A DNA stretch of 64,000 nt from Desulfomarina profundi (GTDB lineage: Bacteria > Desulfobacterota > Desulfobulbia > Desulfobulbales > Desulfocapsaceae), in contig NZ_AP024086.1 of assembly GCF_019703855.1 (NCBI RefSeq), positions 3,678,501 to 3,742,500 of the forward strand, written 5' to 3'. Position 1 is the stretch's first letter. Every line of letters starts with the position of its first letter. Below, piece after piece: positions 26,592 through 30,753 of this stretch. The translations under genes were made by a program, and so were the position numbers. The notes under the pieces were generated by a model. That model was not told the origin of the DNA. It saw only the letters and a list, made by a program, of their open reading frames with translations, and ran no database searches.

Positions 26592-27655
26592 CTACATTTT
26601 CCAATATTTTTTTGCAACTTCCCTAACCATTTCAATTGCCGGATGGATACCTTTTTCTTCAGCAAGACTTGATATGAACGTATAGTCCATTTTTTTATTC
26701 ATTTCATTTTTTTCTTTAATACCTGCAAGTTCACAGAGAGTTGCAAAAACTCCCTCTTCCATCCCGGAAAAATTATATCCTCCTTCCAGAGAAAAAAAAA
26801 TTCTGCCATCGCAGAGTTCCTCTGCAAGGTTTACCAGGACTCTCGTCATATAGGCAAAACCGTCCCCCGTCACCCTCATGGCGCTGATACCGTCATCTAT
26901 ATATGTATCAAATCCGGCAGATACAAGGATCAGTTCAGGCCGATATTCTCTGCAAACAGGCTTAACTACTGTGTTAAAAATATTAGCATACTCCATATCC
27001 CCCTGTCCCCCGGCAACGGAATATTCAAGGTATATCCCTGACCCTTTCCTGAACCTGTTTCACGCAGGGACCCCGTTCCCGGATAAAGCGGATACTGGTG
27101 TATTGAGAGGTAAAAAACTTCATCTGTTTCATAAAAAGCATTTTGAGTACCATTTCCATGGTGTACATCCCAATCAACAATGAAAATTCTCTTTATACCG
27201 TATTTTTTCCGAGCATGTTGTGCAGCTATGGCAATGTTGTTAAAGAGACAGAAACCCATAGATCTGTTTTTTTCAGCGTGGTGACCAGGAGGTCTCACCA
27301 GCCCGAAACCATTATCCACACTTTTATTGAAAATAAGATCCATAGCCCCGACTACTGCCCCAACTGCATGGCAGGCAGCATTAAAACTCTCCCCTGATGT
27401 ACAGGTATCCACATCAAGAACTGAATATATCTTACCTGAAGTTGCAGCTACCTGGTTTACCAGATTTTCCGTATGATTATAGAGAAGTTTTTCTTTTGAA
27501 ACCGGTGTAATTTCCGGTTCTATAAAATATTCTCTGTTTTCTCCCTTATTGAGTATTTCATATATTCTTTTAATTCTTCCCGGGGACTCTATATGTGTGC
27601 TTCCGGGATCATGGGCCAGGAAAATTTTATCTTTGAATATAGCCGTATTACGCAT
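26592..27655 (-). CDS. Histone deacetylase / acetylpolyamine amidohydrolase family protein, interrupted by a frameshift
   Basis: This zinc deacetylase fold has LAHDPGSTHIESPGRIKRIY, RPPGHHAEKNRSMGFCLFNN, the metal-binding block IVDWDVHHGNGTQNAF, then after the break VSAGFDTYIDDGISAMRVTG and SLEGGYNFSGMEEG (catalytic Tyr region). The first frame runs off after NIPLPGDRG. One extra base in the run at 27007-27011 gives NIPLPGGQGDMEYANIFNTV and joins the two frames into ~354 residues, a normal size. It probably deacetylates a polyamine, acetoin-related or protein substrate; bacterial roles vary. Preceded on this strand by the yeeE terminator, so it is its own unit. Confidence 0.85.
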
Positions 27656-27741: not shown

Positions 27742-27784
27742 AAAAAAAGGCGCAATTTCACTCTCCTGTGAAATTGCGCCTTTA
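27742..27784 (-). terminator. Rho-independent terminator after yeeE
   Basis: On the minus strand a perfect 13-bp stem GGCGCAATTTCAC / GTGAAATTGCGCC with a six-base loop is followed by eight Ts. It lies 24 bases beyond the yeeE-like stop codon and separates that gene from the HDAC gene. Confidence 0.95.
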
Positions 27785-27807: not shown

Positions 27808-29052
27808 TTACATCGGTACAATGAGTTTGTTGGTTTCTTCATTCCAGGTAACCACAAGATACCAGATAATCATGGCACCTCCTATCAGAAGAAGAGTAGG
27901 TCCATACCCCAGGGCGTCGGGAAGATATACAGCTGAACCCAGAGCACCATCCGCCTCAAAATCGTTATCCCTGAACCAGGCTGTCATAACCGAAGAAACT
28001 ATACCGAAAAACGGAACAACCATTATAAGTTTTACCTGGCCTTCTCCCACACGCCAAAGTGTACCTGATCCACAACCTCCTGCAAACATGGCCCCGAGAC
28101 CAAAGAGAAAACCTCCAGCAACTCCACCCCAACCAAAAGTACCGCGAATATAATTCAAGGGAGCAAGAACTGCTTCACCTTCAGCCCTCATGGGAACCGC
28201 ATATTTCAAAACTGCAGCCCCAATAGCTACTATGACAATAGACAACATCACAGATTTAGCCATGGTGCAGTCACCGGTCATATGGGGTTCACGAAAACCC
28301 TGAACCATACACCAGCGTCCACGCTGCATGGCATAACCGAGACCTGCTGCAATAAGCAGTATTCCTGAAAGAGAAGCTATATAATCACTATCTTCATTAG
28401 CGGAGTATGTATAGGCACCCCATATTAAAGCAATAATTGCAGCTACTCCCATTAGATAAACAACAACCGACGGAAAAGTGATCGTTTTTGATCCTCCTTC
28501 TCCCCAGGATATATACTCCATTTCAAGATAAAGCAGTTTCAATCCCAAAACCACACCAAGAACAAGTCCTAACCACATTGCAAAACCATTGGCTCCAAGA
28601 TTACCGATGGCATTATAAAAACCACCTACATTGCAGCCACCAGCAAGCGTAGCGCCGATACCCATAAGTATACCTGCAATAACAGCTTTTACCATTTCCC
28701 TGTAAGGAGGAATACGCAGGGCAAAATCTTTTCCAAGACACGCGGAAATAAAAGCTCCGGCAACAAATCCTATACCTATTACTGAACCGGAATTCACAAA
28801 AATAGAACGCGGAGCCTCATCATAAAATTCAAATATTCCGGAATCAGAACCAAAGAGAGTGGCTCCCCCATACATAATCCAGTCACCCCAGCTTCTTATG
28901 GCTCCCACAGCACCCCAGGGTCTCCACCATGCCATTATCATTACTGAGAAAAAGGCAACTATCACACCTGTAATATAAGGGTTCCACTCCTTCTCACAAA
29001 AAATGCTGTACAACTCTTTGCTTTTGTTTTTAAAAACGGATTCTTCACTCAT
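27808..29052 (-). CDS. YeeE/YedE-family sulfur-compound transporter (two sulfur-transport domains)
   Basis: The ~414-residue membrane protein contains two repeats of the sulfur-transport domain, each with the conserved Cys motif: TLAGGCNVGGFYNAIGN (about 130) and MFAGGCGSGTLWRVGEGQ (about 340), plus GRWCMVQGFREPHMTGDC in the middle. YeeE/YedE proteins import thiosulfate or another sulfur species, passing it along cysteines. The start is set at MSEESVFKNKS (29052), which has gggagag just upstream; an earlier ATG at 29079 is less likely. It is divergent from tusA, with the sulfur-relay genes on the other side of a shared intergenic region. Confidence 0.92.
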   Translation of the reverse strand: MSEESVFKNKSKELYSIFCEKEWNPYITGVIVAFFSVMIMAWWRPWGAVGAIRSWGDWIMYGGATLFGSDSGIFEFYDEAPRSIFVNSGSVIGIGFVAGAFISACLGKDFALRIPPYREMVKAVIAGILMGIGATLAGGCNVGGFYNAIGNLGANGFAMWLGLVLGVVLGLKLLYLEMEYISWGEGGSKTITFPSVVVYLMGVAAIIALIWGAYTYSANEDSDYIASLSGILLIAAGLGYAMQRGRWCMVQGFREPHMTGDCTMAKSVMLSIVIVAIGAAVLKYAVPMRAEGEAVLAPLNYIRGTFGWGGVAGGFLFGLGAMFAGGCGSGTLWRVGEGQVKLIMVVPFFGIVSSVMTAWFRDNDFEADGALGSAVYLPDALGYGPTLLLIGGAMIIWYLVVTWNEETNKLIVPM

Positions 29053-29232
29053 AGATACTCTCCCTGTTAAAATAGACAAAAAGTAACTTCAGCAAATTAT
29101 ATTTGTAAATTTCATACACACCCAAAAAAAATTTGTCAATATAAACAGCTTGAAAACAGAATATATACCACTTTGTGGTGTTTATTTTTTAATAAAAATA
29201 TTAATGAGTTATATAACATATTTTTTCAAACC

Positions 29233-29261
29233 TTGACAGATGGCAGAAGCTAAAGTATAGG
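29233..29261 (+). promoter_or_regulatory. Probable sigma-70 promoter of tusA
   Basis: TTGACA (29233-29238), a 17-base spacer and TATAGG (29256-29261) form a good promoter about 95 bases before the tusA start codon. It sits in the ~300-base divergent intergenic region 29053-29356, which is AT-rich and otherwise shows no clear operator. Confidence 0.6.
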
Positions 29262-29356
29262 TCAAAAATGAATATCTATTCAGGTAAGGAAAGAATTATC
29301 CTTATTTTTTTCTTATCGATTTTTTACAAACTCATTACATTTCGGGAGAACAGATT

Positions 29357-29614
29357 ATGAGTGACTTTAAAGTAGTTGCCGATGGTGTGGAAGCAACAAA
29401 AGTACTGGATGCTAAAGGACTCAGTTGTCCAATGCCGCTTCTCAGGACAAAGAAAGAAATTGGTAAATTAAACTCAGGTGACATTCTTCAGGTCGATGGA
29501 ACCGATCCAGGTTCAAGAAATGATCTTCCCGGCTGGTGCGAAAGAACAGGACATGAATATCTGGGTGAAAAGGAAGAATCCGGATATATAAGCTTTTTTA
29601 TAAAAAAAGGATGA
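29357..29614 (+). CDS. tusA: TusA-family sulfur carrier protein
   Basis: The 85-residue protein has the TusA signature LDAKGLSCPMPLLRTKKEI; the Cys in CPMP (residue ~25) carries the persulfide. The typical two-layer fold ends in YISFFIKKG. It shuttles sulfur between sulfurtransferases in the cytoplasm. It is divergent from the YeeE-like importer and upstream of DsrE/DsrF/DsrH-like genes, a standard sulfur-relay neighbourhood. A 16-bp hairpin and a dispersed repeat separate it from the next gene. Confidence 0.95.
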   Translation: MSDFKVVADGVEATKVLDAKGLSCPMPLLRTKKEIGKLNSGDILQVDGTDPGSRNDLPGWCERTGHEYLGEKEESGYISFFIKKG

Positions 29615-29690
29615 CAGATTAATACCTGTCTCTCTTCCGTGCACTTCCTGCAGAGACTACTCTAATTAATTGATATTATATTTTTTATTA

Positions 29691-29731
29691 ACTGTTAAGT
29701 ATCTTTTCTATTTTTAAAGATACTTAACAGT
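29691..29731. repeat. Perfect 16-bp hairpin between tusA and the dsrE-like gene
   Basis: ACTGTTAAGTATCTTT pairs with AAAGATACTTAACAGT across a 9-base loop. No long T-tract follows on either strand, so it may be an RNA processing or stability element or a weak terminator rather than a classical terminator. Confidence 0.75.
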
Positions 29732-29831
29732 TCGCTTTTCTCTAATATTCTATATCAGAGTTTATTTTTATGTTTTTTACTGGATAAACCAGCATATATG
29801 ATCCCAATAGCTCAGAGTTATTTATACCTTT

Positions 29832-29904
29832 GAGCACAGTAAACAAATGAAAGTCCTACTGCGACAGAACGACATTCAGTGGTGGGATTTTCTGATAAAA
29901 AGCC
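29832..29904 (+). repeat. ~70-bp dispersed repeat, copy before the dsrE-like gene
   Basis: Contains aaatgaaagtcctactgcga, cagaacgac and tgggattttctgataaaa. It ends 25 bases before the dsrE-like start codon, the same kind of placement as the copy before pal. Confidence 0.65.
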
Positions 29905-29929
29905 ACCAATCTTCTTAAAGGAGGATAAT

Positions 29930-30244
29930 ATGGCAAAAAGTTTAGGTATTTTCGTTACCACAACCGACAGCCTTAATCACGTTATTGGTATTGTTAAAGC
30001 AGCAAAAGCAAAAGGTTCCAATGTCAAAGTCTTTTTTACCTGGAAAGCAACAACACTTTCAAAGGATCCTGCTTTTCCAGGACTTTGTGAATTAGCAGAC
30101 GATGTCTCCATATGTGTTGACAGTTATAAAAAACAGGGTTTTGACGTTGATGATATCCCTGAAGGATTAACTGCCAAAAAAATGGCAACTCAGGCTCAAC
30201 ATGGTATTATTATTGAAGATTTTGACTGTTACCTCAGCCTGTAA
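29930..30244 (+). CDS. DsrE/TusD-like sulfur relay protein
   Basis: The ATG at 29930 follows a consensus ribosome site (aaaggaggata), so it is preferred over an upstream ATG at 29879. The 104-residue protein begins MAKSLGIFVTTTDSLNHVIG and shows DsrE-fold alternation; cysteines at about 53 and 62 (FPGLCELADDVSICVDSY) lie where the persulfide-carrying Cys of DsrE is expected. It probably receives or donates sulfur with TusA. It is followed 12 bases later by a DsrF-like gene and then a DsrH-like small gene, so the order is E-F-H as in known complexes. Confidence 0.75.
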   Translation: MAKSLGIFVTTTDSLNHVIGIVKAAKAKGSNVKVFFTWKATTLSKDPAFPGLCELADDVSICVDSYKKQGFDVDDIPEGLTAKKMATQAQHGIIIEDFDCYLSL

Positions 30245-30256
30245 AGGAGATATCAA

Positions 30257-30559
30257 ATGGAATACAAAAAAGTATGTTTTATGTACAGACATGAAGATTA
30301 TGCCATTGACGGTATACGATCTGCGTTGGGTTTAGCCGTCGAAAACATGTATTCATATGGTGTTGTACTGGATAAGGAACTCCCTGAACTGGATGAATTG
30401 ACTCAGGAAAGTATCGAAATGTTAAGGGATATGGAAGGTGATGTTTTATCTACAGTTCAGGCAAATATAGATAAGAACAATTTTACCCCCATTACACTGG
30501 AAGAGCTCGGAGAAAAACTTCGTGAAATGACCCATATCATTCCTTATGGTCCAAAATAA
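30257..30559 (+). CDS. DsrF/TusC-like sulfur relay protein
   Basis: The 100-residue protein starts MEYKKVCFMYRHEDYAIDGI, then RSALGLAVENMYSYGVVLD, which resembles the KVxFV...GLRxxLGLxVENM pattern of TusC/DsrF. The C-terminal half is acidic and helical (LDELTQESIEMLRDMEGD). A good ribosome site (aaaggagat) precedes it. Its position between DsrE-like and DsrH-like genes supports a role in a heteromeric sulfurtransfer complex. Assignment within the DsrE superfamily is by resemblance and context. Confidence 0.65.
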   Translation: MEYKKVCFMYRHEDYAIDGIRSALGLAVENMYSYGVVLDKELPELDELTQESIEMLRDMEGDVLSTVQANIDKNNFTPITLEELGEKLREMTHIIPYGPK

Positions 30560-30579
30560 CAGACATCCAGGAGTTTTTT

Positions 30580-30753
30580 ATGAAAATATTGAATGTATAC
30601 AGGTCTGAACCTGATGAAACTGTACAGAAACTGGTTGAAATAGTTGGGCGTGACCGGGAAACAGACAGTTTTGATCTTACTGTTGAAAGCCCTGATTACG
30701 AGACACTGGTAGATAAAATATTTGCTGCTGACCAGACCATTTGCTGGTGGTAG
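30580..30753 (+). CDS. 57-residue DsrH/TusB-like protein
   Basis: This short frame begins MKILNVYRSEPDETVQKLVE and ends SPDYETLVDKIFAADQTICWW. The end recalls the DYxxFVxLxx...W tail of TusB/DsrH, and one cysteine sits four residues from the C-terminus. It is only 57 residues, against ~95 for TusB, so it is either a minimal version or a distinct helper. Ribosome site ccaggag precedes the ATG by eight bases. It closes the sulfur-relay operon. Confidence 0.65.
   Translation: MKILNVYRSEPDETVQKLVEIVGRDRETDSFDLTVESPDYETLVDKIFAADQTICWW

Follow-up and report, generated by a model that had tools for sequence, protein, structure and literature searches.

The YTD cluster consists of a yedE-related importer gene, tusA, a dsrE-like gene and two genes encoding conserved hypothetical proteins. 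It is a highly conserved set for taking up and relaying sulfur in sulfate reducers and sulfur disproportionators. Its three small proteins were predicted in March 2026 to assemble into a double trimer resembling DsrEFH (PMC13047784). In May 2026 the dsrE-chp1-chp2 set was named DsrEFH type II, and the proteins of a cable bacterium were purified as a 1:1:1 complex (PMC13293266). DsrF- and DsrH-like folds have been assigned in published homologues (PMC13047784, PMC13293266). In vitro, sulfur moves in the cable-bacterium system from TusA to Cys67 of DsrE and then to DsrC; thiosulfate loaded none of the recombinant TusA, DsrEFH II and DsrC (PMC13293266). DsrEFH type II is present in 985 genomes, 73.9% of which have reductive dsrAB (PMC13293266). 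The literature disagrees on the role of the cluster, which may be oxidation, disproportionation or some other form of sulfur transfer. In bacteria that are as a rule regarded as sulfate reducers alone, the cluster is a proposed marker of sulfur oxidation or disproportionation, hence each instance bears on the genome-based reading of sediment sulfur cycling.

The genome of Desulfomarina profundi is a single contig, a chromosome of 4.31 Mb. In the window, that is, the whole stretch of 64,000 nucleotides that was analysed, five genes occupy positions 27808–30753: an importer gene on the minus strand and, divergent from it on the plus strand, tusA and genes encoding proteins of 104, 100 and 57 aa (Table 1). 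All the genes that define the YTD cluster thus stand together at this locus. We identify the locus with high confidence as a YTD cluster (yedE-type importer, tusA and dsrEFH type II) with a TusA–DsrE relay. The system is not new: the cluster has been described before, and so has its short and divergent E/F/H trio, with published biochemistry. The first-pass annotation, made from the sequence of the window, had proposed an importer, TusA and a relay in the E-F-H order; all five frames are present, and published work independently agrees (PMC13293266, PMC13047784).

Table 1. Features of the predicted YTD locus (positions in the window)
Feature	Position	Strand	Evidence
YedE-type YeeE/YedE-family (Sulf_transp) membrane importer, 414 aa	27808-29052	-	PF04143, E 2.9e-47
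TusA sulfur carrier, 85 aa, Cys24-Pro-Met-Pro motif	29357-29614	+	PF01206, E 1.6e-24
DsrE subunit of DsrEFH type II (YTD DsrE-like), 104 aa	29930-30244	+	AlphaFold2 model, PDB matches, Cys62
DsrF-like subunit (YTD Chp1), 100 aa	30257-30559	+	Position and conservation in 77/80 loci; fold from published homologues
DsrH-like subunit (YTD Chp2), 57 aa, C-terminal ICWW	30580-30753	+	Length conservation, dN/dS, AlphaFold2 model
Probable intrinsic terminator of the importer gene, 16-bp stem and T tail	27746-27783	-	
17-bp intercistronic hairpin in the tusA/dsrE-like gap	29690-29732	+	Fold z-score -6.5

The importer start was taken as the ATG at 29052, the mechanical ORF extending to a TTG at 29079. 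The conserved start of the dsrE-like gene is the ATG at 29930, and its mechanical ORF begins at the GTG at 29879. For the three small proteins encoded at this locus, neither Pfam nor NCBIfam yields a family above the cut-off. At 26592–27655 on the minus strand there is a histone-deacetylase/AcuC-like gene. It looks frameshifted in the window, since it is split over two overlapping frames of 229 aa and 134 aa; the Pfam match of the 229-aa frame covers the initial two thirds of the family.

Close relatives belong to the Desulfobulbales, chiefly the Desulfocapsaceae (Desulforhopalus, Desulfopila, Desulfofustis, Desulfocapsa and metagenome-assembled genomes). A relative of DsrE is present in 46 of 58 related genomes; the genome collection contains at least 92 such loci, of which 80 were fetched and compared. 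The E-F-H order on one strand is seen in 77 of these 80 Desulfobulbales loci, with tusA upstream in 78 and a divergent importer in 69. Where 2.5 kb or more upstream of dsrE was available (70 loci), all five genes have identical order and orientation in 60, and three of the ten exceptions (L061, L077, L081) lack the downstream genes only because the available sequence stops there. The median pairwise dN/dS is 0.05 for DsrE (12 pairs), 0.06 for DsrF (4 pairs) and 0.08 for DsrH (15 pairs with usable dS), values that are indicative only, as synonymous sites are near saturation. Cys24 of the TusA CPMP motif is conserved in 99% of sequences, and Cys140, Cys248 and Cys327 of the importer in 97–100%.

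The DsrE-like protein contains an invariant cysteine, Cys62 (84 of 84 sequences), and two that are nearly so, Cys53 (96%) and Cys100 (93%). Its AlphaFold2 model, built from an alignment of 39 sequences, is confident (pLDDT 90, pTM 0.84) and places Cys62 at the end of a strand, ahead of a helix. The best PDB matches of the model are the DsrE-family structures 2qs7, 3pnx and 2pd2, with probability 1.00 but E-values of only 0.003 to 0.04. Pfam DsrE is matched individually by 22 of the 39 family members, and a profile comparison of the family with another DsrE-superfamily protein of the host genome gave no result. The DsrE fold proposed for this subunit is thus borne out by the model. Given the invariance of Cys62 and its position in the predicted fold, it is probably equivalent to Cys67 of E. 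aureum. DsrF has no conserved cysteine among the relatives, the best candidate, Cys7, reaching only 69%, and Cys55 of DsrH varies (see below); hence the working cysteine to follow is that of DsrE. Cysteine conservation across the trio, which the first-pass annotation had advised checking, singles out the cysteine of DsrE and not the near-terminal one of DsrH.

The usual TusB/DsrH protein is about twice as long as the 57-aa product of the last gene of the trio, and this product has no match in Pfam, NCBIfam or the PDB. The canonical DsrH/TusB family (PF04077) was not found in the host genome, and neither the DsrF- nor the DsrH-like protein gave a useful match in single-sequence and profile searches of Pfam, NCBIfam and the PDB. 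The short length of the 57-aa product and its missing matches might be explained by a spurious or decayed ORF. However, among 81 distinct complete relatives the length is 57 aa in 78 and 58 aa in the remaining 3, dN/dS is low, pointing to purifying selection, there are invariant positions, and the AlphaFold2 model has a confident fold (pLDDT 91, beta-alpha-beta-alpha-beta), although its PDB fold matches do not single out the DsrE family. Moreover, the published homologue co-purifies with its partners at 1:1:1. We consider a spurious frame practically excluded, the conservation and the low dN/dS being decisive, and take the unusually short third gene, pointed out at first reading, to be real. 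The computed mass of the trio, 29.5 kDa, is similar to the 33 kDa of the published heterotrimer, which suggests that a short H subunit is probably general.

The C-terminal pattern DYxxLVxxIFxxDxTIxWW, whose DYxxLV...W core had been noted from the single sequence, is present, with a conservation of at least 97% for the two final tryptophans, W56 and W57. Cys55 is found in 88% of relatives, with Ser in the exceptions shown. Being absent in about one eighth of the relatives, it is probably not catalytic, and we judge a catalytic terminal cysteine in this protein unlikely.

The gap between tusA and dsrE is 315 bp in D. profundi, while in the relatives it varies from 23 to 239 bp, with the median of 89. 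It contains a strong hairpin that matched no RNA element in Rfam. In 29 of 75 relatives this gap holds an unbroken stem of 10 or more pairs, against a mean of 6.5 after shuffling, and in 24 of the 75 the stem exceeds all 20 shuffles. The sequence of these stems differs between lineages and their place is constant, in about a third of the related loci; such stems are almost missing from the far shorter E-F and F-H gaps. In E. aureum, tusA-dsrEFH is one transcript, in contrast to the hairpin-containing gap here. The hairpin may set differing mRNA levels of tusA and dsrEFH, with attenuation or mRNA processing as possible routes.

The importer is the sole PF04143 gene of the host genome. Its alignment with TsuA of S. 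thermophila (6LEO) falls into two blocks in swapped order: residues 232–353 correspond to 6–117, and residues 93–177 to 245–330. Counted along these alignments, Cys248, Cys327 and Cys140 of the importer match Cys22, Cys91 and Cys293 of TsuA, the three cysteines of the thiosulfate path. The swap is seen again with E. coli TsuA (228–356 to 6–123, 17–176 to 192–338). On the other hand, the alignment with E. coli YedE is colinear (46–363 to 39–343, E 1e-27, 26% identity), and E. coli YedE is likewise swapped relative to TsuA. Hence the importer is YedE-type. Judged by these alignments, it is a circular permutation of TsuA/YeeE, with all three relay cysteines kept at new positions. Since half-length PmpA and PmpB proteins exist, fusion in either order is easy to imagine. 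No paper that names a circular permutation in the family of the importer came up in a full-text literature search, which is a weak negative. A YedE-type importer with the cysteines of TsuA matters when thiosulfate transport is inferred by homology.

The resemblance to E. coli YedE, annotated as a putative selenium transporter, suggests another possibility, namely that the relay is biosynthetic and supplies selenium, or sulfur for thio-cofactors or tRNA, like YedE-YedF or TusBCD-TusA. TusA of this locus also matches YedF about as well as it matches TsuB. However, the matches to the NCBIfam YedE/FdhT, TsuA and YedF families are all far under the cut-offs (for TsuA, 98 bits against 645), the distribution of the cluster tracks reductive dsrAB (73.9% of genomes), and the YTD proteins respond to the sulfur growth mode. 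Hence we regard a biosynthetic role as improbable.

Neither dsrAB nor dsrC is adjacent to the locus, as had been stated at first reading; both are located elsewhere in the genome. The DsrC gene (L115) encodes two C-terminal cysteines. At about 39.8–42.6 kb of the chromosome (G000:C1), dsrA, dsrB and a dsrD-like gene stand in a row; the latter has no match in NCBIfam. The co-occurrence of the cluster with reductive dsrAB is thus observed in this genome as well. Full-length AprB has about 165 aa, and the AprB gene of this chromosome (L113:4183-4599, at about 509.2 kb of G000:C1) encodes no more than 138 aa. According to a published suggestion, a shortened AprB tail goes along with disproportionation in the Desulfobulbales (PMC8170396). 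That the uptake route is self-contained, as suggested by the first-pass annotation, is not supported: DsrC, DsrAB(D) and AprB are encoded in the same chromosome, and in the tests on the cable-bacterium homologue it was DsrC that served as the downstream acceptor.

Other genes of the same families are seen outside the window. A second pair of a DsrE-superfamily gene and tusA is located in L116 (G000:C1:3983000-3995000), at about 5.1–11.2 kb, followed by genes for an MvhD/FlpD-like protein, two QmoA/QmoB-like HdrA proteins and a QmoC-like membrane protein. This set is possibly an Hdr/Qmo-linked sulfur relay. A third tusA gene is situated at G000:C1:3599342-3599937, and a DsrE-superfamily gene follows it directly.

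The following route seems the most likely for the cluster. Reduced sulfur, polysulfide or other sulfane sulfur, would be produced outside the cell or in the periplasm and would cross the YedE-type channel by way of the three cysteines. TusA would accept it on Cys24, and DsrE would take it on Cys62 within the DsrE-DsrF-DsrH heterotrimer, in which DsrF and the 57-aa DsrH would be scaffold subunits. DsrEFH would then pass the sulfur to DsrC, and oxidation to sulfite and sulfate by DsrC, DsrAB, AprAB and their partners would follow, as part of sulfur oxidation or of disproportionation. We are less sure of the imported substrate and of the oxidative direction than of the identity of the cluster, and give them roughly an even chance. 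Thiosulfate as the substrate of the relay, one of the options named in the first-pass annotation, finds no support in the published loading experiments.

Alternatively, the cluster may serve mainly disproportionation: the importer and TusA would import and split thiosulfate, and the DsrEFH-like complex would accept the sulfide or sulfite products. The cluster has been proposed as a disproportionation marker, one study saw it in every elemental-sulfur disproportionator that it examined, and in Desulfolithobacter the YTD proteins are more abundant under thiosulfate disproportionation; the three TsuA cysteines retained by the importer point in the same direction. However, only 25 of 63 cultured disproportionators have the cluster, which does not track a given substrate, many sulfate reducers that do not disproportionate carry it, and thiosulfate failed to load any of the recombinant cable-bacterium proteins (PMC13293266). 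We find this alternative rather doubtful. A further reading is that in this lineage of sulfate reducers the YTD cluster lets the reductive-type DsrAB pathway run backwards, with sulfane sulfur passing from the half-swapped importer with its three-cysteine path via TusA and a minimal DsrEFH to DsrC, in real sulfur-oxidising growth; we put this forward tentatively, as somewhat less than an even chance.

Comparison with the described systems places the locus as follows. The canonical DsrEFH (type I, Allochromatium vinosum) and TusBCD share with it the DsrE fold, the DsrE cysteine after a strand, the E-F-H gene order and the TusA partner. Unlike them, the trio of D. profundi has no Pfam DsrH or DsrF match, its DsrH is half-sized, and dsrAB and dsrC are not adjacent. 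The TsuA-TsuB (YeeE-YeeD) system has an importer with three equivalent cysteines and a TusA-family partner, but here the halves of the importer are swapped, and the proteins are below the TsuA and TsuB/YeeD family cut-offs. The YedE-YedF pair of E. coli, a putative selenium transporter pair, has a colinear importer, and TusA is 31% identical to YedF; however, the curated YedE/FdhT and YedF cut-offs are far from being reached, and that pair lacks DsrEFH type II.

The closest system is the YTD cluster with DsrEFH type II (PMC13293266, PMC13047784, PMC12998232, PMC9751629). The locus contributes one further instance of it, together with the observation on the YedE-type importer. No distinguishing feature was found, and the locus is another member of this group: it has the same five genes, with an unannotated trio beside TusA and a YeeE/YedE importer, a single working cysteine in DsrE, a host from the order Desulfobulbales, and reductive dsrAB in the same genome.
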